A stretch of 33,407 nucleotides of DNA. Origin: an uncultured Spirochaetaceae bacterium. GTDB taxonomy: Bacteria; Spirochaetota; Spirochaetia; Sphaerochaetales; Sphaerochaetaceae. Position 1 is the first letter of the stretch. Each line of letters begins with the position of its first letter. The position numbers and the translations under genes were made by a program. This document shows positions 21,509 through 30,234 of the stretch, one piece after another. Location of the stretch: contig CALXQU010000018.1 of NCBI GenBank assembly GCA_944390725.1, positions 1-33,407 on the forward strand, given 5' to 3'. Under the pieces are notes generated by a model that worked only from the letters and a program-made list of their open reading frames with translations, did not search any database and was not told the DNA's origin.

Positions 21509-22033
21509 ATGGATTGGACAATCGCGATCGGATCGGTAACATTCGGGCTTCTTGACGTCATCGCCCTCGCCATAGTGCTTGTCGGGGCGATATCAGGATG
21601 CATAAAGGGATTCACCAGGAAGGCAGGCAAGGCCGCCGCGGTACTGCTGGCCATGCCGGGGGCCGCGCTCTTCACCAAGCAGGCAGGCACGCTCCTCGCC
21701 GACAGCTCGGGCCTCGCGATATTCCCCGCGACGCTGATTGCCTTCGTGGCCCTTACGGCCCTCGTGTATACGCTCATCTTCGTCTTCGTCAGCCAGCTCT
21801 CGAGCATAGTGGAGGCCAGCGGGGCGCTGAGGGCGCTCGACAGCATCGTCGGCTTCGTGCTGGGGCTGCTGTGCTCTGCGCTGGTGCTCTCGCTCATAAT
21901 CGCGCTGCTGCAGTACCAGACCTTCTTCGACATGTCGGTCCTTACCGACAACAGCGTCATATTCAAGAGGATAATACAGCCCCTCTATCCCCAGATGATG
22001 GAGCTCTTCACGGGAGCGTTCAATGGCATTTGA
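21509..22033 (+). CDS. cvpA: CvpA-family membrane protein
   Basis: 174 residues with four hydrophobic segments (about 13-30, 41-56, 70-94, 112-136). The pattern 'DVIALAIVLVGAISGCIKGF' at the N-terminus and 'LRALDSIVGFVLGLLCSALV' (108-126) are diagnostic of CvpA, named for colicin V production in E. coli and of uncertain function, with envelope roles suggested in several bacteria. It opens the operon cvpA-holB-kinase-regulator-dinG; its last 11 bases overlap the next gene. Confidence 0.85.
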   Translation: MDWTIAIGSVTFGLLDVIALAIVLVGAISGCIKGFTRKAGKAAAVLLAMPGAALFTKQAGTLLADSSGLAIFPATLIAFVALTALVYTLIFVFVSQLSSIVEASGALRALDSIVGFVLGLLCSALVLSLIIALLQYQTFFDMSVLTDNSVIFKRIIQPLYPQMMELFTGAFNGI

Positions 22034-23219
22034 GGCCCTGCGCCAGATCCAGGGGGCAGCTGCCGATGAGCTCTCATCGGCGCTGGAGTCGGGCAGGCTC
22101 CCCCGTTCCATACTGATATCCGGCGGGAAGGGGTCGGGCAGGCTGACAGGCGCGCTTGACCTCGCGTTCGCCGTCGCCGGCGGCGACAGGGAGATCCTCA
22201 GGAGCGGCAGCGTGGCATACCTGGCCGCGCGTCCATTCCGTTCCCGGTTCGAGGCCGCGGCCAATCTCTTCCTCGCGCAGAAGAACAGGAGGAGCAGGAT
22301 CTTCTTCATCCAGACTGTGCGGAGCATACTGCTCCAGTACCATCCATCCCTCAGCCCGCTGTATAAGGATAAGGCCGGCATCAAGGGGAATGTGGACAGG
22401 AAGGCCTTCACTAGGCTGGGGGCATCGCCCTCCATCGCGGAGGCGGCATCGCAGCTTGACGAGGTCCTGCTGTCGATCGAGGATGACAGGGATTACGGCA
22501 GCGCCGAGATAGAGGCGGCCGTCAATGCCGCCATGCTGCTGCTGACCCCTGAGGTCATGCGCTGCGGCAGGAAGACTCCCGGCGCCTCGATAGAGGAGAT
22601 ACGCGCCATCCAGGAATGGCTTGCCGATGGCAGCGAGGGCAAGGCGGTGATACTCGAGAATATCGAGGACTATTCCGAGGGGGCGAAGAACAGCCTGCTG
22701 AAGCTGCTTGAGGAGCCTCCAGAGGGCGCATGGCTGATACTCGTTTCCGGCAGCCAGTCGCGCATCATGGAGACGATCCTCTCGCGCGTGAGGAAGTTCC
22801 AGTTCCCGGCGCTTTCCGAGAAGGCGGTCTCCGGCTGCATCGCCAGCATGTTCTCGATCTACGGCAGGTACAGGTCCTTCGATGCCTTCTTCTTCGAAGA
22901 GGGCGCAGGCGATGAGGAGAAGTCGCAGATGGAACGGTGCCTCTCGGCGTACTCTTCGGCGCTGCTGGAGGGCAGGATGCTGCCCAATGACGAGATGGAG
23001 AAGCTGCTGTCCTCGCTTGCCAGGATCGACGGGTTCGGCTATTTCCGCGAGGAGCTCTGCGGCCTGGTCGCCGACAGGCTTGCCGACGGGAGCCTTAGCA
23101 GGGTGCGGGCTAGGCGCATCTGGGATGCGCTCTCCCTCTATCTGGGGATGAGCGACAGCTACAACATGAGCATAAGGCTGGCTCTTGACTATGCCTTGAG
23201 GGAGGTCTCCGGTGTCTGA
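22023..23219 (+). CDS. holB: DNA polymerase III delta'-like clamp-loader subunit
   Basis: 398 residues. 'GKAVILENIEDYSEGAKNSL' and 'LKLLEEPPEGAWLILVSGSQ' (from about 206) followed by 'TILSRVRKFQFPAL' is the core of gamma/delta' clamp-loader proteins. The P-loop position reads GGKGSGR (34-40), without a GKT, as in non-hydrolysing delta'. A long stretch (about 60-190) separates it from the core and lacks the four-Cys zinc module of DnaX-type proteins. The start overlaps cvpA and the end overlaps the kinase gene, so all are translated together. Confidence 0.8.
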   Translation: MAFEALRQIQGAAADELSSALESGRLPRSILISGGKGSGRLTGALDLAFAVAGGDREILRSGSVAYLAARPFRSRFEAAANLFLAQKNRRSRIFFIQTVRSILLQYHPSLSPLYKDKAGIKGNVDRKAFTRLGASPSIAEAASQLDEVLLSIEDDRDYGSAEIEAAVNAAMLLLTPEVMRCGRKTPGASIEEIRAIQEWLADGSEGKAVILENIEDYSEGAKNSLLKLLEEPPEGAWLILVSGSQSRIMETILSRVRKFQFPALSEKAVSGCIASMFSIYGRYRSFDAFFFEEGAGDEEKSQMERCLSAYSSALLEGRMLPNDEMEKLLSSLARIDGFGYFREELCGLVADRLADGSLSRVRARRIWDALSLYLGMSDSYNMSIRLALDYALREVSGV

Positions 23220-24381
23220 GAAGCTTCTGAGGAAGGTGCTTGAGGATTTCGAGTCATATCCTGCGGAAGAGGTGCAGCGCCTCATCAGGGAAGGGCTGGA
23301 GAAGAACGAGGTCTACAGGTCGCTGCTCGATTTCCAGCCGATCGGCCATATAGCGGTAGGCGGCGAGAGGCAGATACTCTTCGTCTCCAAGTCCGTGCAG
23401 CTCCTGCTTCCATGCGACAGGAGGAAGCGGACCAGGGAGGGGATGAAGCTCGATTCGCTGATGGTCGATGCCGATGTGAAGAAGTTCCTCCTGGCTGTCT
23501 TCAGGGGACGGGAGAAGCCTGATGCGAGGGAGTTCGCGGTGCAGATGGGCGGCGAGACGCGCATCATCCGCATATCGTTCGCCTCCATCGACGCGGGCAG
23601 CTTCCCGTTCGTGGACATCATATTGCAGGATATCACGGAGGAGAAGCAGAAGGAGATCAGGCTCAGGCGCTCTGAGTCCCTTGCCTCTATGACCACGATG
23701 GCGGCAGGCATCGCCCATGAGATCAAGAACCCCCTGGCGGCGATGAAGATACACCTGCAGCTGATGCGCAAGGTGCTGCAGCAGAAGAAGAGCATCTCCG
23801 ATGCGGAGGCCGAGCGCTATCTGGGCGTGCTCGACGAGGAGATCGACCATCTCAACACGATTGCCGTCGACTTCCTCTTCGCCGTGCGCCCGATGGATAT
23901 CGAGCTGATGCTGGGCTCCGTCAATGCGGTCATGGATGACCTCATCACGTTCCTCGCCCCGGAGGCTGAGGAGAAGCATATCAGGATATCCAGGAACCTC
24001 GACAGCTTCCTGCCGAATGTGGAGATCGATGCGCGCTATCTCAGGCAGTGCCTGCTGAACATCATCGAGAATGCCTTCGCGGCGATGCCTGGAGGCGGCA
24101 CCCTGGGGCTATCCACCAGGCTTGACGGCGATTTCGTCACCATACGCATCAGCGATACCGGCACGGGAATCGCCGAGGGCGAGATACAGAAGATCTTCGA
24201 GCCTTACTTCACCACCAAGGCGACAGGCACCGGCCTGGGCCTCACTGTCGTGTACAAGGTGATCAAGGAGCACCGCGGCGATATCTTCGTCTCCAGCCAG
24301 GAAGGGAAGGGGACGGTATTCACGATCAAGCTCCCGGTGCCGCAGAGCCAGCGCAAGGCCATAGGGAACAAGGAGGTATGA
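23212..24381 (+). CDS. Soluble PAS-domain sensor histidine kinase (NtrB/Hk2-like)
   Basis: 389 residues from GTG 23212, supported by GGGAGG eight bases upstream. No transmembrane segment is present. An N-terminal PAS-like domain (about 35-145) is followed by the HisKA H-box 'AGIAHEIKNPLAAMK' with phospho-acceptor His169, then the HATPase domain: N-box 'NIIENAFAAMPGGG', 'DTGTGIAEGEIQKIFEPYFT' and 'TGTGLGL'. It is clearly the partner of the NtrC-type regulator that begins one base after its stop. The signal sensed is unknown but must be intracellular. The layout parallels Borrelia Hk2/Rrp2. Confidence 0.93.
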   Translation: MSEKLLRKVLEDFESYPAEEVQRLIREGLEKNEVYRSLLDFQPIGHIAVGGERQILFVSKSVQLLLPCDRRKRTREGMKLDSLMVDADVKKFLLAVFRGREKPDAREFAVQMGGETRIIRISFASIDAGSFPFVDIILQDITEEKQKEIRLRRSESLASMTTMAAGIAHEIKNPLAAMKIHLQLMRKVLQQKKSISDAEAERYLGVLDEEIDHLNTIAVDFLFAVRPMDIELMLGSVNAVMDDLITFLAPEAEEKHIRISRNLDSFLPNVEIDARYLRQCLLNIIENAFAAMPGGGTLGLSTRLDGDFVTIRISDTGTGIAEGEIQKIFEPYFTTKATGTGLGLTVVYKVIKEHRGDIFVSSQEGKGTVFTIKLPVPQSQRKAIGNKEV

Positions 24382-24382
24382 C

Positions 24383-25741
24383 ATGGCGACCCTTCTGATT
24401 GCCGATGACGAGAAGAACATAAGGTCAGGGCTCCAGCTCGCCTTCGAGGGCGAAGGCTATGACGTGCTTACGGCCGCGGATGGCAGCGAGGCATGGGAGA
24501 AGGTGCAGAGGAATATCATCGACCTTGTCATCACCGACCTGAGGATGCCGGGCATGGATGGCAATGAGCTGATAAGGCGCATCGTCTCCTCCTATCCCAC
24601 GATGCCTGTCATCGTCCTTACCGGCCATGGCACCATAGAGACTGCCGTGGAGACGATGAGGGAAGGGGCGGTGGACTTCTTCACCAAGCCTGTCGATATA
24701 GACAAGCTCTCGCTTGTCGTCCGCAAGACCATATCAGCCTCCCAGCTCGCGGAGCAGAACAGGAAGCTGGCGGAGGAGGTGGAGAAGCTGCGGAGGCAGC
24801 AGGGCTACGGCAGGATCATCGGCAAGTCAGGCAAGGTCGCCCAGCTCATGCAGATCGTCAGCCAGGTGGCCTCGACCAAGGCCTCTGTCCTCATCACTGG
24901 CGAGTCAGGGACGGGCAAGGAGCTCGTGGCGGAGGCCATACAGCAGCTTTCCCCGCGCAAGGACGGCCCGTACGTCAAGGTGCACTGCGCCTCCCTTTCC
25001 CCTACGCTGCTGGAGGATGAGCTCTTCGGCCATGAGAAGGGTGCCTTCACCGGTGCCGTATCGCAGAAGAAGGGCAGGTTCGAGCTTGCTGACGGCGGCA
25101 CGCTCTTCCTCGACGAGATCGGCGAGATCGACCAGGCCACACAGGTCAAGCTCCTGAGGGTGCTGCAGGAGAAGCAGTTCGAGCGCGTAGGCGGGGAGAA
25201 GACGCTCACCGTCGATGTGCGCGTGATCTGCGCGACCAACAGGGACCTCTATAAGGAGATGCAGGAGGGCCGCTTCAGGGAGGACCTCTACTACAGGCTC
25301 AATGTCGTCCATATCGAGGTGCCGCCGCTTCGCGAGAGGAAGGAGGATATAGACCTCCTCTGCGCATCTTTCCTCAGCACTTTCAACAGCGAGGATGGCC
25401 GCAAGGTGGAGGGCTTCACCCCCCAGGCGCGCAAGGCGCTCTTCGCCTATTCCTGGCCAGGCAATGTCAGGGAGCTGCGCAATACCATCGAGGCGGCTGT
25501 GGTGCTCTGCAAGGGCAGGATGATAGATATCGATGACCTCCCTCCGCAGATCAGGGAGACAGGAGGCGGGAGCACTGTCACGTTCACCCTTCCCGTGACG
25601 ATGGAGGATGCCGAGATGCGCCTCATCCTCGAGACGATCTCCTATGCCAAGGGCAACAAGACCAAGGCCGCGGACCTGCTGGGCATAGGCCGCAAGACGC
25701 TGCACAGGAAGCTGGCGGAGAGAAATGCCGAGGAGCAGTGA
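24383..25741 (+). CDS. NtrC-family sigma-54 activator (response regulator)
   Basis: 452 residues in the classic three-domain form. Receiver domain (1-118) with acidic pair D9/D10 and phospho-acceptor D52; AAA+ domain with Walker A GESGTGKE (173-180), the sigma-54-contacting GAFTGA loop (220-225) and Walker B 'LFLDEIGE' (241-248); C-terminal Fis-type HTH ('NKTKAADLLGIGRKTLHRKL'). An intact GAFTGA means it should activate RpoN-dependent promoters by ATP hydrolysis. The only convincing -24/-12 promoter noticed in the window is that of the sigma factor at 28800, the best local target candidate. rpoN itself is not in the window. The 3' end overlaps the dinG-like gene. Confidence 0.95.
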   Translation: MATLLIADDEKNIRSGLQLAFEGEGYDVLTAADGSEAWEKVQRNIIDLVITDLRMPGMDGNELIRRIVSSYPTMPVIVLTGHGTIETAVETMREGAVDFFTKPVDIDKLSLVVRKTISASQLAEQNRKLAEEVEKLRRQQGYGRIIGKSGKVAQLMQIVSQVASTKASVLITGESGTGKELVAEAIQQLSPRKDGPYVKVHCASLSPTLLEDELFGHEKGAFTGAVSQKKGRFELADGGTLFLDEIGEIDQATQVKLLRVLQEKQFERVGGEKTLTVDVRVICATNRDLYKEMQEGRFREDLYYRLNVVHIEVPPLRERKEDIDLLCASFLSTFNSEDGRKVEGFTPQARKALFAYSWPGNVRELRNTIEAAVVLCKGRMIDIDDLPPQIRETGGGSTVTFTLPVTMEDAEMRLILETISYAKGNKTKAADLLGIGRKTLHRKLAERNAEEQ

Positions 25742-27809
25742 TTTCTTCGCCGCGGGCGGCATCCTCTCCAGGCGCATACCGGGCTTCGCGTACCGTCCCT
25801 GCCAGGAAGGGATGGCTGAGCTGGTGGAGAAGGCCCTCAGCTCATCATGCCATGCGGTGGTGGAGGCCGGTACAGGCACCGGCAAGAGCTATGCATATAT
25901 CGTGCCGCTCATGCTCAGGGCCGCTGAGGGCCTGGGCAAGGAGATCATCGCCACCAGCACCATGCCGCTGATGGGACAGCTCCTGCGTAAGGACATACCG
26001 CAGATGCTTGACGCGCTCTCCCTCGACCTCGATGTGGCTGCGCTCTACGGCAGGGGCAACTACCTCTGCGCGCTCAAGTGGGACTATCTCTACCAGAGCA
26101 GGAAGGATGATGACGGGGTAAGGCGCTTCGCCGGCTGGGTCGACGGGACGGAGACAGGGCTCAGGGATGAGATAGCCGACCCGTCGCTGTATCCCCTCTT
26201 CGCCGAGTGCGCTGCCGAGCGCGAGAGCTGCATAGGCCGCTTCTGCCCGTACATCAGCCAGTGCTTCTATTACAGGGCGAGGAAGAGGGCCGAGGAGGCG
26301 GACATCATCGTGACCAACCACCACGTCGTCCTCTCGGATATCATGCTCAGGAGGGAGAAGGGCTCCGGAAGCGATGAGGCCGTCCTGCTCCCGCCCTTCG
26401 ATGCCATGGCGATAGATGAGGCCCACAACTTCCCGGACGGTGCTACCGATACCTTCACATCGACATTCTCCACGCGCGATGCCAGGCATGTCCTGAAGGC
26501 CATCGCCGACAGGAGGGCAGGGAAGGGCCAGTGCCTTATCGATGCCCTCTCTCCCTGCCTTAAGGACAGGGCTGCCTATGGCGAGATCAGCAGCATGGTT
26601 GCGGAGATAAGGGAGATGGCCGAGGATTTCGACGTGAGGATACGCTCCCTGCTCGGCCGCCGGGGACGCAGCGGGGAGAGGATTGCGTTCGATGCCAGGT
26701 TCTACGAGGAGAACAGGTTCGCGGCAAGGTCATTCGCGCCCCTTGCCGGGAGGCTGTCCGAGCTCGGCTCCCTGCTGGCCTCGTCATTCATGGCCCCTGA
26801 GGATGCCAGCGAGGAGACCTGGGGCGATATGAGGACGCTCGCATTCGCAGCTGAGAGGCTCTCGGAGCTAGGGACACTGCTGGAACGCTGGATCGGATTC
26901 TCCTATCCTGCCGATGAGATACCGTATGGCGTGGAGGAAGGCGGGACGCTCTATATATCATTCGCGCCGATGGACACGGGCCGCATCCTCGCGGAGTCCT
27001 TCCTGGACAATGGCTCGCCAATCATCTTCTCCTCGGCGACGCTCTCCGTCGGCGGCTCCTTTGATTTCTTCGCCTCCCAGGTAGGCCTCGACATATGCGA
27101 GACCGGCTATATCTCCTCATGCTTCCCGACATCGTTCGACCTGGGCCGCAACCTGCTCTGCCTTGTCGCCAGGGGAGGGATGAGCTATTCCAATGAGGAG
27201 AAGGGAAGCTGGGAGGAGGGCCTTGCCCAGCCGATCGCCGATGCGATAAGGGCCTCGGGCGGAGGCGCGCTCGTGCTCTTCACCTCGCGCTCCTCGATGG
27301 AGAACGTCTATCCTAAGGTGAAGGTGCTGCTTCCGGGCATGTCCGTCCTCATGCAGGAGAGCGGCAGGTCGAGGAACATGCTGCTGAAGGCCTTCAAGGA
27401 GGATGAGGACAGCTCCCTCTTCGCGCTTTCCTCGTTCTGGGAGGGCATCGATGCGCCAGGCGAGACGCTGAGGCTGCTTATCATCCCCAAGCTGCCGTAT
27501 CCGGTGCCTACCGACCCCATCATAGCCGCACGCGGCGAGATGCTTGCCGAGCGGACGGGGCGCTCTGCCTTCATGGAGCAGGCGGTGCCCCTCTGCGCGC
27601 TGAAGATGAAGCAGGGCATCGGGCGCGTCATCCGCGGCGAGAAGGACAGGGGAGCCGTGCTGATCCTCGACCAGCGCATCATGAAGCCGATGTCGAGGAA
27701 GATACTCGCATCCCTCCCCGAGTGCCATATGGAGACGGATGTGCCGCTTGCCATGGTCCCTGGCAGGCTGCGTGGGTTCTACGGAATGGAAAAGCCGGAG
27801 CACCCATAG
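25725..27809 (+). CDS. DinG-family ATP-dependent helicase with Fe-S cluster motif
   Basis: 694 residues of the XPD/DinG superfamily 2 helicases. Walker A 'EAGTGTGKS' (47-55), DEAH box 231-234, and motif VI 'QGIGRVIRGEKDRGAVLILD' near the end. Cys115, Cys169, Cys174 and Cys180 lie between motifs I and II in the spacing expected for a 4Fe-4S cluster. Such enzymes unwind damaged or structured DNA 5' to 3'. It begins 17 bases before the end of the regulator gene and ends inside a terminator stem. DinG and YoaA cannot be distinguished here. Confidence 0.9.
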   Translation: MPRSSDFFAAGGILSRRIPGFAYRPCQEGMAELVEKALSSSCHAVVEAGTGTGKSYAYIVPLMLRAAEGLGKEIIATSTMPLMGQLLRKDIPQMLDALSLDLDVAALYGRGNYLCALKWDYLYQSRKDDDGVRRFAGWVDGTETGLRDEIADPSLYPLFAECAAERESCIGRFCPYISQCFYYRARKRAEEADIIVTNHHVVLSDIMLRREKGSGSDEAVLLPPFDAMAIDEAHNFPDGATDTFTSTFSTRDARHVLKAIADRRAGKGQCLIDALSPCLKDRAAYGEISSMVAEIREMAEDFDVRIRSLLGRRGRSGERIAFDARFYEENRFAARSFAPLAGRLSELGSLLASSFMAPEDASEETWGDMRTLAFAAERLSELGTLLERWIGFSYPADEIPYGVEEGGTLYISFAPMDTGRILAESFLDNGSPIIFSSATLSVGGSFDFFASQVGLDICETGYISSCFPTSFDLGRNLLCLVARGGMSYSNEEKGSWEEGLAQPIADAIRASGGGALVLFTSRSSMENVYPKVKVLLPGMSVLMQESGRSRNMLLKAFKEDEDSSLFALSSFWEGIDAPGETLRLLIIPKLPYPVPTDPIIAARGEMLAERTGRSAFMEQAVPLCALKMKQGIGRVIRGEKDRGAVLILDQRIMKPMSRKILASLPECHMETDVPLAMVPGRLRGFYGMEKPEHP

Positions 27810-27820
27810 GGCCTCCGGCT
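27790..27820. terminator. Bidirectional terminator between dinG-like and groES genes
   Basis: Stem AGCCGGAG (27793-27800) / CTCCGGCT (27813-27820). The minus-strand side ends in TTTT (plus AAAA at 27790-27793), so it best serves groES; on the plus strand it overlaps the dinG-like stop codon. Confidence 0.7.
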
Positions 27821-27842
27821 GATGCATTTCCTGCTATGCCGA

Positions 27843-28106
27843 TTACTCGACGACAGCAAGGATATCGGAATAGGAGAGGATCAGGTAGTCCTCGCCATTG
27901 TCCTTGATCTGGGTTCCGGCATACTTGTCATGGATGATCTCCTGACCGGCCTTGACCTTGATCGTCTCGTCATCGCCGACTGCGATTACCTCTGCGATCT
28001 GCGTCTTCTCCTGAGCTGTCTGCGGGATGAAGATGCCGGAAGCGGTCTTCTCTTCAGTAGCCTTTGCCTTAACAAGCACCCTGTCGCCAAGTGGAAGAAT
28101 TTTCAT
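27843..28106 (-). CDS. groES: Co-chaperonin GroES
   Basis: 87 residues from the ATG at 28106 ('MKILPLGDRVLVKA'), with GAGAGG eight bases upstream. GroES is the heptameric lid of the GroEL chamber. 'KTASGIFIPQTAQEKTQIAEV' is the mobile loop that binds GroEL, and 'VIAVGD' and 'GEDYLILSYSDILAVVE' complete the fold. The gene is alone: groEL is not next to it, unlike most bacteria, so the pair must be expressed from separate loci. No CIRCE element was found; a short inverted repeat GGTC-N5-GACC lies at 28127-28139 in the leader. Confidence 0.97.
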   Translation of the reverse strand: MKILPLGDRVLVKAKATEEKTASGIFIPQTAQEKTQIAEVIAVGDDETIKVKAGQEIIHDKYAGTQIKDNGEDYLILSYSDILAVVE

Positions 28107-28146
28107 GTTATCACCTCTCTGTATTAGGTCCCTAAGACCATATAGG

Positions 28147-28175
28147 AATATACATAGGTAAGGTGAAAACGGCAA
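28147..28175 (-). promoter_or_regulatory. Promoter of groES
   Basis: Minus-strand TTGCCG (plus 28170-28175), 17-base spacer, TATATT (plus 28147-28152). The leader of roughly 35 bases includes the inverted repeat GGTC-N5-GACC. Confidence 0.55.
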
Positions 28176-28247
28176 GTGCAGGTTTTTCTCCACAGGCTCT
28201 TCACTTTCCGCGGATTCTTATTATATTCCTTGTTGAAGGTACTGATC

Positions 28248-28622
28248 ATGGAGACATTGGGGAATGCCTATTACCATACCGGACTGCGGGAAGCGCGCGA
28301 GGGCCATTACGAGAAGGCCTTCGATGCCTATTCCCTCGCGTTCCTCATCAGGAGGGGCGAGACCTCCCCGACGCTGGAGTTCATCTCCTTCTACAGGTAC
28401 CAGCTCCTTTCATACCTGAAGGGCAAGTGCTCGTTCGTACTCTCCCTTCCCGAGGGCGATATGGTAACGGACCTAATCGAGGATGAGTACAGGAGCTTCG
28501 TCGAGTCGATGTCCTCCTCCCCGTTCTGCATCACAGGCGACGGCCGGCGCAATCTCCTCGAGAGCGTGAAGATCGTCTTCCCGTGCCTATTTGACACGGA
28601 AGGCGGCGAGGATGCCCTCTGA
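28248..28622 (+). CDS. Small protein of unknown function with a TPR-like N-terminus
   Basis: 124 residues from ATG 28248 (GAAGG upstream). I do not recognise the family. 'GNAYYHTGLREAREGHYEKA' and 'FDAYSLAFLI' resemble a single tetratricopeptide repeat, suggesting protein-protein contacts; the rest is mixed helix with no catalytic motif, signal or membrane segment. Codon use matches the neighbours and the reading frame is clean, so it is likely real. It lies between groES (divergent) and the sigma-factor control region, whose first palindrome begins at the base following its stop. Confidence 0.6.
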   Translation: METLGNAYYHTGLREAREGHYEKAFDAYSLAFLIRRGETSPTLEFISFYRYQLLSYLKGKCSFVLSLPEGDMVTDLIEDEYRSFVESMSSSPFCITGDGRRNLLESVKIVFPCLFDTEGGEDAL

Positions 28623-28637
28623 GTGTCATAATGACAC
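28623..28637. promoter_or_regulatory. Candidate activator site 1 (perfect palindrome)
   Basis: GTGTCATAATGACAC: seven-base arms around a central A. Its centre is about 153 bases upstream of the predicted sigma-54 transcription start at 28783, in the usual range for an enhancer of an NtrC-type activator. Confidence 0.7.
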
Positions 28638-28662
28638 CTTTAGCCGGCTTCCGGCACCCGCT

Positions 28663-28677
28663 GTGGCAGAATGACAC
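28663..28677. promoter_or_regulatory. Candidate activator site 2 (13 of 15 match to site 1)
   Basis: GTGGCAGAATGACAC, centred 40 bases after site 1 and about 113 bases before the predicted start. Paired sites are typical for cooperative binding of NtrC-family dimers. A very A+T-rich, probably bendable stretch (about 28700-28745) lies between this site and the promoter. Confidence 0.65.
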
Positions 28678-28755
28678 TTACTATATGCTATCTACATAAA
28701 GCGGAATATAGTTTAATTTTATATATTATAATTAATTATCATGATATGCATAGAG

Positions 28756-28773
28756 TTGGCACGCCTCCTGCAA
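28756..28773 (+). promoter_or_regulatory. Sigma-54 (-24/-12) promoter of the sigma-factor gene
   Basis: TTGGCACGCCTCCTGCAA: the invariant GG is at 28758-28759 and the GC at 28770-28771, exactly 12 bases apart as the RpoN consensus demands. Transcription would begin near 28783, giving a 17-base leader that contains the CGGAGG ribosome site of ATG 28800. Confidence 0.85.
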
Positions 28774-28799
28774 GATATGTTTATGAACGGAGGTTCGCA

Positions 28800-29681
28800 A
28801 TGGACACAGCCAATATAAAGAAGAATGAGTACCTTGACAGCGACAGCGATAACGAGGTCCTTTCCATATATCTCAGGGAAATAAACAGGATCCCTCTCCT
28901 CACGCATGAGGAGGAGACGGAGCTCGCGGTGAAGGCCAAGAACGGCGACAAGGCGGCAAGGGAGAGGCTCATAAACAGCAATCTCAGGTTCGTGGTGTCT
29001 GTTGCCAAGAAGTTCCGCGGGCAGGGGCTTCCGCTCCTTGACCTCATCAACGAGGGGAATATCGGGCTCATCACGGCAATCGACAAGTTCGAGCCGGACA
29101 AGGGCTACCACTTCATCTCATACGCGGTATGGTGGATCCGCCAGTCTATCCTCAAGGCGATCCCTGAGAAGTCGAGGGCCGTAAGGCTCCCGCTCAACAG
29201 GTCCAACGAGCTGATGCAGATACTGAAGGCGAAGAAGGCCCTAATGCATGAGATGGAGACGGCAGAGCCTTCCGTCGAGGATATCTCCAGGGAGACGGGG
29301 CTTGATGCGAAGCTCATCTCCGACCTGCTCGCGGTCAGCGGCGAGATGATGTCCTTCGACAGTCCCGTGAAGAAGGGCGAGGACGGCTCCTCGACCTACG
29401 GCGACTTCCTCGAGGATGAGTCGGCAGGACCTGAGACGAGGATGATGGACAAGGCCCTCAAGGAGGAGGTCAGGTCACTCCTGGATGTCCTCAGCGACAA
29501 GGAGAGGGACATCATCATCAAGCGCAACGGGCTTGACGGCAATGAGGCGATGAGCCTCAAGGAGATAGGCGAGGGCTACTCCCTTACCAAGGAGAGGATC
29601 CGCCAGATAGAGAAGAGGGCGCTCATGAAGCTCAGGGAAGAGAGCATGCGCCGCGGCATGGATGCGTTCATGGCATCATGA
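28800..29681 (+). CDS. Short sigma-70-family factor (group 2, RpoS-like in size)
   Basis: 293 residues from ATG 28800, with CGGAGG upstream. Region 1.2 ('LSIYLREINRIPLL'), regions 2.1-2.4 (60-120; 'DLINEGNIGLITAIDKFEP' and 'YAVWWIRQSI'), region 3 (about 155-210) and region 4.2 ('SLTKERIRQIEKRALMKLR', 261-279) are all present. Region 1.1 and the long non-conserved insert of primary sigma factors are missing, so this is an alternative sigma rather than the housekeeping RpoD. Its sigma-54 promoter and upstream palindromes place it under an NtrC-type activator, the way rpoS is controlled in Borrelia. Its regulon cannot be read from this window. Confidence 0.88.
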   Translation: MDTANIKKNEYLDSDSDNEVLSIYLREINRIPLLTHEEETELAVKAKNGDKAARERLINSNLRFVVSVAKKFRGQGLPLLDLINEGNIGLITAIDKFEPDKGYHFISYAVWWIRQSILKAIPEKSRAVRLPLNRSNELMQILKAKKALMHEMETAEPSVEDISRETGLDAKLISDLLAVSGEMMSFDSPVKKGEDGSSTYGDFLEDESAGPETRMMDKALKEEVRSLLDVLSDKERDIIIKRNGLDGNEAMSLKEIGEGYSLTKERIRQIEKRALMKLREESMRRGMDAFMAS

Positions 29682-29746: not shown

Positions 29747-30118
29747 TCAGCCCATCTCCTCGAGGTGCCTGCTGATGGCGTCGACGGTCTCCTGCGAGAT
29801 GATGTGCTCGATGCGGCAGGCGTCCTGGGTCGCTACGGCATTGCTGACGCCGATCCTGCGGAGGAAGGCGGAGAGCATCTTGTGGCGCGAATAGATGGCC
29901 TCGGCAATCTCCATCCCCTTGTCCAGCAGCCTGATGCTTCCTGTCTCCGGATTGATGGATACATATCCGTTCTCACGCAGGTTCTTCATCGCCCTGCTGA
30001 CGCTGGGCTTCGAGAAGTCCATGGCCTGTGCGACATCGATGGCGCGGACGATCTCCCTCGTCTCCGAAAGGCGGAGTATCGTCTCCAGATACATTTCAGC
30101 GGATTCCTGTATTACCAT
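29747..30118 (-). CDS. DtxR/MntR-family metal-dependent repressor (short form)
   Basis: 123 residues from the ATG at 30118 (AAAGGAA upstream); a start further up is possible. A winged-helix domain (about 5-65) is followed by the dimerisation domain; the SH3-like third domain of DtxR is absent, as in MntR. Aligned primary-site residues are M9, C101, E104 and H105, matching the Met/Cys pattern of DtxR/IdeR rather than the Asp/Glu of MntR, which hints at Fe(II). Of the ancillary site only H79 remains (S83 and Q98 replace Glu and His). It is divergent from ppdK; no metal transporter gene is near. Confidence 0.85.
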   Translation of the reverse strand: MVIQESAEMYLETILRLSETREIVRAIDVAQAMDFSKPSVSRAMKNLRENGYVSINPETGSIRLLDKGMEIAEAIYSRHKMLSAFLRRIGVSNAVATQDACRIEHIISQETVDAISRHLEEMG

Positions 30119-30234
30119 TGCCGTTCCTTTCCTCTGATTATACATGATAAGGGCGCATAATACGACATCCATCGCACACTGGAACGATGTTTCATTTTTC
30201 AGAATGCTAATTTCTGCGATTTTCAGGCTTTAGA

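Follow-up and report, generated by a model that had tools for sequence, protein, structure and literature searches.

Is the cascade through which Borrelia turns on its sigma factor RpoS, with the kinase Hk2, the activator Rrp2 and the sigma factor RpoN as its upstream parts, particular to that lineage, or is it one form of an older spirochaete system? The question is raised by a stretch of 33,407 nucleotides (the window) from an uncultured Spirochaetaceae bacterium, which represents contig C18 of a genome of 2.08 Mb estimated as 84% complete, and which carries, within 6.5 kb, a sensor kinase gene, a gene for an NtrC-type activator, a -24/-12 promoter and, directly behind that promoter, a gene for a short sigma-70-family sigma factor. 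Our comparison of this locus with its relatives suggests that kinase, activator, an array of palindromes in front of the promoter, RpoN and the short sigma factor probably constitute a single cascade, and that the Borrelia pathway is most simply understood as a derived form from which the array has been lost. In such a cascade, we infer, the kinase would phosphorylate the activator, and the activator, bound to the palindromes, would start transcription by RpoN polymerase at 28757-28772; the short sigma factor, once made, would direct RNA polymerase to a set of stress genes. Small heat-shock (Hsp20) genes, found behind arrays of the same kind, would be co-targets of the activator.

The candidate array, its narrow target set, the joint change of palindrome and activator helix, and the absence of the palindrome from the Borrelia-like upstream regions examined are the new content of this work. 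A literature search of titles and the beginnings of abstracts, with subscription papers mostly outside its scope, found no report on this palindrome, and none in which sigma-54 controls the short sigma gene in an organism other than Borrelia.

Results

A conserved sigma-54-type site before the sigma gene

The sigma gene (28800..29681, + strand) encodes 293 amino acids and starts with the ATG at 28800, preceded by GGAGG at 28789-28793; a mechanically assigned open reading frame (ORF) start at 28671 was rejected, as it falls upstream of the promoter. The promoter itself, TGGCACGCCTCCTGCA at 28757-28772 (+ strand), is of the -24/-12 sigma-54 type and is the sole exact match of TGGCACN5YTGCW in the whole window. 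As motif counts inside the window are near chance, they were dropped as promoter evidence in favor of comparative counts, and the case for the promoter rests on conservation. For this purpose we built a weight matrix on the general sigma-54 promoter consensus and applied it, with a threshold of at least 13 bits, to a stretch of 185 start positions preceding the gene in 51 loci titled as spirochaete (L003-L053), taken from the best 80 loci of a protein search in named genomes. A site was found in 46 of these relatives; the background on the same loci, 26 sites per 1,097,204 other positions, leads one to expect 0.0044 per upstream region, or about 0.2 in all 51. The relatives without a site are L026, L033, L045, L046 and L052, with less than 50 nucleotides of upstream DNA available in L026 and L045. 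Among the next 29 loci (L054-L082), which belong mostly to other phyla and include two Spirochaetia, two score at least 12 bits, one of them being the Spirochaetia record L055. By its conservation, the putative promoter is no chance match.

The distribution of the site was followed further in a panel of 198 genomes of the phylum, with one locus per genome read in 89 of them at a threshold of 12 bits within 200 nucleotides; the Borrelia-like, Treponema pallidum-like and Treponema denticola-like labels used here for panel genomes are inferred assignments. A sigma-54-type site precedes the short sigma gene in six of seven Borrelia-like genomes, in 23 of 29 genomes of the same class outside the Borrelia-like family (a count that excludes G081 and G153), and in 20 of 53 genomes of other spirochaete classes; it was found in none of the five genomes read from a Brachyspira-like family. 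On the gene tree, presence of the site is clustered, requiring 15 changes as compared to 50 in shuffles, although near-copies contribute to this figure. The preliminary description of this DNA had reported a near-consensus sigma-54 site at 28756-28773 as the only good promoter of the sigma gene, with transcription beginning near 28783. This holds up well: the site is located as given above, the start predicted from it is near 28783, and a search between 28400 and 28900 gave no sigma-70-type site on the + strand, the two that are present lying on the - strand.

A palindrome array and its targets

Upstream of the promoter, the window contains three copies of a palindrome with the consensus GKGTCAWWWTGACMC, which we regard as candidate upstream activating sequences. 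The second copy, GTGTCATAATGACAC (28623..28637, + strand), is perfect, and it is separated by exactly 40 bp both from the first, GTGCCTATTTGACAC (28583..28597, + strand), and from the third, GTGGCAGAATGACAC (28663..28677, + strand), each of which has two mismatches; only 0.21 matches would be expected in the whole window. In a survey limited to upstream regions with a recognized -24/-12 site, GTCA-N3-TGAC was present with seven or eight of its eight letters in 55 of 82 distinct regions (4.2 in letter shuffles) and with all eight in 21 (0.15 in shuffles); GTCA and TGAC at other spacer lengths (1, 2, 4-7) occurred in zero to six. Among the 76 non-redundant regions from which the consensus was derived, the distance from copy to copy is 40 bp in 38 cases and 80 bp in 12, and seven other distances occur once each. 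In G006 and G049 the palindrome is present as a single perfect copy and not in tandem. No palindrome at seven of eight letters was found in the promoter-bearing upstream regions of six Borrelia-like, one T. pallidum-like and one T. denticola-like genome.

Single palindromes are too frequent to define targets, as TGTCAN3TGACA with one mismatch occurs at 49 places in the source genome, compared with 11 for the reversed control, and therefore we searched for tandem copies instead. This search, in which a pair of palindromes had to lie at a distance of 40 bp and one mismatch was allowed, was blind to gene and promoter and covered 297 genomes of the class. It returned 47 sites in 38 genomes, against four for the reversed pattern; once overlapping arrays had been merged by our own count, these corresponded to 41 target units, of which 29 lead to the sigma gene, nine to Hsp20 genes, two to lipoprotein-like genes and one, L287, which probably lies within a gene, to neither a sigma nor an Hsp20 gene. 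Of the first 30 tandem-array loci, 28 also have a -24/-12 site in reach, scoring at least 12.5 bits. A composite search of the same 297 genomes, for a palindrome followed by a promoter 80-110 bp on, gave 32 matches in 28 genomes and a single match for the reversed control; the 30 loci read comprised 17 sigma genes, ten Hsp20 genes (two of them as weak matches and one assigned by eye), one gene that by eye is FtsH-like, and two positions inside long open frames. The window is missing from these matches because its perfect palindrome copy lies 121 bp from the promoter. In the source genome, an Hsp20 gene recognized by Pfam has the promoter site TGGCACGCGTACTGCA and a seven-of-eight palindrome at -120, with a second copy, half-preserved at five of eight letters, exactly 40 bp on. 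As judged from these searches, the candidate enhancer in its tandem form rarely occurs before genes other than those for the sigma factor and small heat-shock proteins.

The two lipoprotein-like targets mentioned above are both found in genome G138 (L335, 1182 and 4402), where long repeat proteins follow a tandem array with a -24/-12 site; they recall the lipoproteins that the Borrelia pathway controls.

Kinase, activator and recognition helix

The activator gene (24383..25741, + strand) had been described as NtrC-type, and Pfam indeed finds in its product the receiver, Sigma54_activat (AAA+) and Fis-type helix-turn-helix domains that characterize NtrC-family enhancer-binding proteins. The helix-turn-helix (25598..25720, + strand; HTH_8, residues 406-446) contains, according to the alignment, the recognition helix IGRKTLHRKL. 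The gene before it (23212..24381, + strand), the positional counterpart of Hk2/Hpk2, had been described as encoding a soluble PAS kinase. Here the kinase is evident from HisKA and HATPase_c domains, while the PAS part is predicted only: Pfam lists none in this protein, even at E 5, but the orthologue L165 has a PAS_4 match at E 1.6e-10 and the orthologue L039 one at 3.5e-4, below the cut-off, and in an AlphaFold2 model with a mean pLDDT (predicted local distance difference test) of 76, residues 45-140 have a PAS-like topology, and a fold search with the model matches PAS/LOV-kinase chains. Orthologue match and model together lead us to predict a PAS-like domain in the N-terminus.

All 17 array-positive genomes searched carry the linked activator, with 58-90% identity over the matched stretch in the 16 others. 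The source genome has three clear sigma-54 activators, so the neighboring one is not the sole candidate for the array. Within a genus-level clade, seven genomes have a helix of the type IGRKTI[AST]R[RK][MI] in place of IGRKTL[HY]RK[LI], and in those seven the palindrome flank is mostly G (half-sites 32 G versus 7 T), whereas in 14 other genomes of the clade it is mostly T (16 G versus 50 T); these counts are non-independent, come from one clade and include L003 without its helix read. The helix of a paralogue named the C20 type after its contig in the source genome, ISRRTLISKIQEY, is identical in the source genome, with its GTG palindromes, and in G355, G385 and G420, with GGG palindromes (the linked-activator helix of G420 being taken from L007, whose array is identical); thus, the paralogue does not follow the change. 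This C20-type NtrC activator (L253, L325-L334) recurs in each of the ten further array-positive genomes read, and its recognition helix hardly varies among them. In Borrelia-like activators the helix is IGRKTLHNKI and in the T. pallidum-like one IGRKTLYLKL, such that an arginine is replaced in both, a suggestive parallel to the absence of the palindrome there.

The short sigma factor and the order of genes

The product of the gene at 28800-29681, which had been noted as a short sigma-70-family gene downstream of the activator, has the makeup of a group-2-like sigma factor, with Pfam regions 1.2, 2, 3 and 4 above cut-off and no region 1.1 domain. In a tree of sigma factors, the short sigmas of spirochaetes form one clade (support 97/93, 33 rows), outside of which E. 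coli RpoS is placed.

The order kinase-activator-dinG-groES(-)-sigma is found in 27 of the 51 relatives; in L044 the start is cut off, and several other relatives are too short upstream to be judged. Directly before the kinase-activator pair lies holB, for a DNA polymerase III delta-prime-like protein (22023..23219, + strand; DNA_pol3_delta2, E 4e-21), and the same set of holB, kinase and activator recurs in six Borrelia-like, one T. pallidum-like and three T. denticola-like genomes. Each of the seven Borrelia-like genomes has a single match to the window activator at E<1e-60, with 51-52% identity, and six of them have the short sigma gene about 7 kb before the activator on the same strand. 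By this identity and the shared order of holB, kinase and activator, the pair qualifies as a putative orthologue of Hk2-Rrp2. In the T. denticola-like genomes the activator is 56-57% identical to that of the window, and here, as in the T. pallidum-like genome, the sigma gene is found away from the pair, beside a divergent groES. The neighborhoods of related genomes and the panel counts thus lend good support to the earlier suggestion that the cascade is older or wider in spirochaetes than usually described. The preliminary description had also left rpoN to be looked for, and the gene is present in the source genome (G000:C13:4248-4718; Sigma54_DBD, E 6e-47). As 190 of the 198 genomes of the phylum carry rpoN, its presence cannot discriminate and says little alone, and we rejected its co-occurrence as a test of the cascade.

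Other features of the locus and genome

Between activator and sigma gene, the conserved block contains a DinG-type helicase gene (25725..27809, + strand; Helicase_C_2), which keeps its position in the 27 block-bearing relatives, and groES (27843..28106, - strand; Cpn10, E 2e-28), divergent from the sigma gene. The upstream regions of groES genes (in the window 28107-28250, minus strand) have in common, by eye, a TTGMC...GTATATT-like pattern, perhaps a promoter read by the short sigma factor, or else one of the housekeeping kind. Between groES and the sigma-54-type promoter lies a conserved ORF of 124 amino acids (28248..28622, + strand), whose 3' end overlaps the first palindrome copy; tblastn finds it at the same position in 26 of the 27 block-bearing relatives, the exception being L039, and for the longer frame 28176-28622 no Pfam family was found. 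Beyond the sigma gene, Pfam recognizes a regulator gene of the DtxR/MntR-type iron-dependent repressor family (29747-30172, - strand).

Genome-wide, TGGCAYN5YTGCW occurs at 13 sites, compared with four for the reversed control. The other sites were rejected as a regulon, as most look intragenic and those on C9 and C7 are without palindrome; scattered seven-of-eight palindrome matches at L084 and L089 are taken for chance. The C9 site, TGGCACGCAATCTGCA (G000:C9:69629-69644; L091, L252), lies 52 bp before the gene for a protein of 329 amino acids, for which no Pfam family was found, and is perhaps a target of another activator. The C7 site, TGGCACGCATCCTGCT (G000:C7:36431-36446; L087, L254), does not fall within a long open frame, and no gene is evident shortly after it; a repeat-like stretch follows downstream, and a small RNA or short ORF is possible.

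Discussion

How well does a single, inherited cascade account for these observations? Several of them weigh against it. The -24/-12 site is missing in 33 of the 53 genomes of other spirochaete classes, and in four of five T. denticola-like genomes (L157-L160) the -24 element reads TAGCAT for TGGCAT, with the remainder of the site kept. A palindrome at seven of eight letters was not found in 27 of the 82 promoter-bearing upstream regions, and conversely three tandem arrays before sigma or Hsp20 genes (L290, L337, L340) have no -24/-12 site by the scans used. The joint change of helix and palindrome amounts to about one evolutionary event, its counts not being independent, and in G130, G146, G182, G194 and G126 the palindrome is absent yet the LHRK helix, or its arginine, is kept, so that loss of the palindrome does not need a change of the helix. 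To these come the further activators, the window-level motif counts and the position of Borrelia RpoS in free trees, each of which lends itself to a different explanation of the locus.

One of these explanations takes the -24/-12 site for a chance match and has an unrecognized housekeeping promoter drive the gene. It could appeal to the one-mismatch motif, which with four matches in the window against 2.06 by chance is near expectation, but it is hardly credible, given that 46 of 51 relatives have a site in the same position and that the search at 28400-28900 found no sigma-70-type site on the + strand. If the site is genuine, the array might still be bound by another activator, for instance the kinase-linked C20 paralogue, with the neighboring pair having other targets. 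The source genome offers three clear activators, all 17 array-positive genomes searched have at least one beyond the linked one, the C20 type recurs in each of the ten further genomes read, and the fewest further activators are found in G101 (none) and G182 (one), both with palindrome-less upstream regions. However, the C20-type helix stays constant while that of the linked activator differs between palindrome types, the genes are linked as a block in 27 of 51 relatives, and the Borrelia-like genomes retain the linked activator alone, with the -24/-12 site in six of seven; binding by another activator therefore strikes us as improbable.

A more serious objection concerns the sigma factor: Borrelia RpoS may be no orthologue of the short sigmas, in which case two lineages would have put different sigma genes under RpoN and the likeness would be partly convergent. 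Free trees indeed set Borrelia RpoS outside the spirochaete clade, its identity to the window sigma is merely 38-40%, and groES was not found in the 13 kb read around the Borrelia-like rpoS. Yet the Borrelia branch has a length of 4.0, so that long branches meet, and forcing it into the clade of spirochaete short sigmas is not rejected (approximately unbiased test, p 0.24); moreover, the promoter is of the same kind, and the same holB-kinase-activator set lies about 7 kb away. We consider such convergence less likely than not, though by no means far-fetched, and treat a single inherited cascade as the probable reading.

What would be its signal? The chaperone targets argue for protein-folding stress: few tandem arrays have a target other than the sigma gene or an Hsp20 gene, and the divergent neighbor of the sigma gene is groES. 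Alternatively, the kinase could sense oxygen, redox state or nutrients, with Hsp20 as one target of a general stress response, a conceivable if somewhat doubtful reading. In its favor, T. denticola Hpk2, the partner of Rrp2, is described as having an oxygen-sensing PAS domain (PMC12070737), and the PAS-like domain of the window kinase has no known ligand. A broader scenario, to which we give a little less than even chances, is that spirochaetes inherited a sigma-54-gated cascade for protein-folding stress, composed of kinase and activator, the 40-bp-phased array, RpoN, and the short sigma factor next to groES along with Hsp20, and that this cascade has the role which in other bacteria falls to RpoH. 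The temperature-induced virulence switch of Borrelia would then be the same heat-shock circuit after it had lost its enhancer and gained lipoproteins as targets.

Comparison with known systems

The closest known system is Hk2-Rrp2-RpoN-RpoS of Borrelia burgdorferi, with which the window shares an adjacent kinase and NtrC-type activator behind holB, a genome with rpoN, and, at a distance of a few kb, a short sigma-70-family gene preceded by a -24/-12 promoter. The window and many relatives differ from it in the palindromes at 40-bp steps, of which none at seven of eight letters is seen in the six Borrelia-like upstream regions, and in a sigma gene located beside groES with Hsp20 as co-target. 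As to BosR, the co-activator of the Borrelia cascade, the source genome contains two Fur-family genes. The absence of palindromes fits the published enhancer-independent activation by Rrp2. In Borrelia, the purified protein bound no DNA near rpoS despite its DNA-binding domain, and the effect of temperature on rpoS expression runs through rpoN (PMC1976401). If our reading is true, loss of the enhancer would explain the former and an inherited stress input the latter. Overexpression of Hk2 is reported to lower Rrp2 phosphorylation (PMC7649798), and Borrelia is said to have 'appropriated' RpoN for its RpoN-RpoS cascade (PMC6719511). The cascade has been studied as a virulence device of Borrelia; if it is ancestral, its original job and signal become open to study in other, harmless spirochaetes.

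In Treponema denticola, the predicted sigma-54 enhancer-binding protein Rrp2 is the partner of Hpk2 (TDE1970-TDE1969), and no target sigma gene is named for the pair in the part of the report covered (PMC12070737). The pair behind holB in T. denticola-like genomes presumably represents these genes, resembling the window in its activator and differing in that the sigma gene stands elsewhere, beside groES, and mostly has the altered -24 element. For Treponema pallidum, TP1012 is recorded as a sigma factor of RNA polymerase, and TP1013 is the entry for GroES (PMC5015957); the T. pallidum-like sigma gene is likewise divergent from groES and has TGGCATGATATTTGCT upstream, but it differs from that of the window by the missing palindrome and by the activator helix. 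A 2025 survey of sigma-54 regulons links sigma-54 promoters to COG0568 sigma genes generally and, in the passages covered, names Spirochaetia for other groups only (PMC12316311).

Proteobacterial RpoS and other group-2 sigmas resemble the window sigma in its Pfam regions 1.2-4, and its best NCBIfam match is RpoS (TIGR02394); this match, with 282.8 bits, stays below the cut-off of 378.7, and E. coli RpoS, as mentioned, falls outside the spirochaete clade. With classical NtrC-type enhancers, the candidate sites of the window share their palindromic form and a position some 80-170 bp ahead of a -24/-12 promoter. They differ from the classical case in their strict 40-bp spacing, with up to three copies, and in targets that include little besides the sigma gene and genes for small heat-shock proteins. 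The 40-bp array offers a testable way to define a regulon across dozens of spirochaete genomes, and its fixed geometry lends itself to the question of how activators of the NtrC type come together on DNA.

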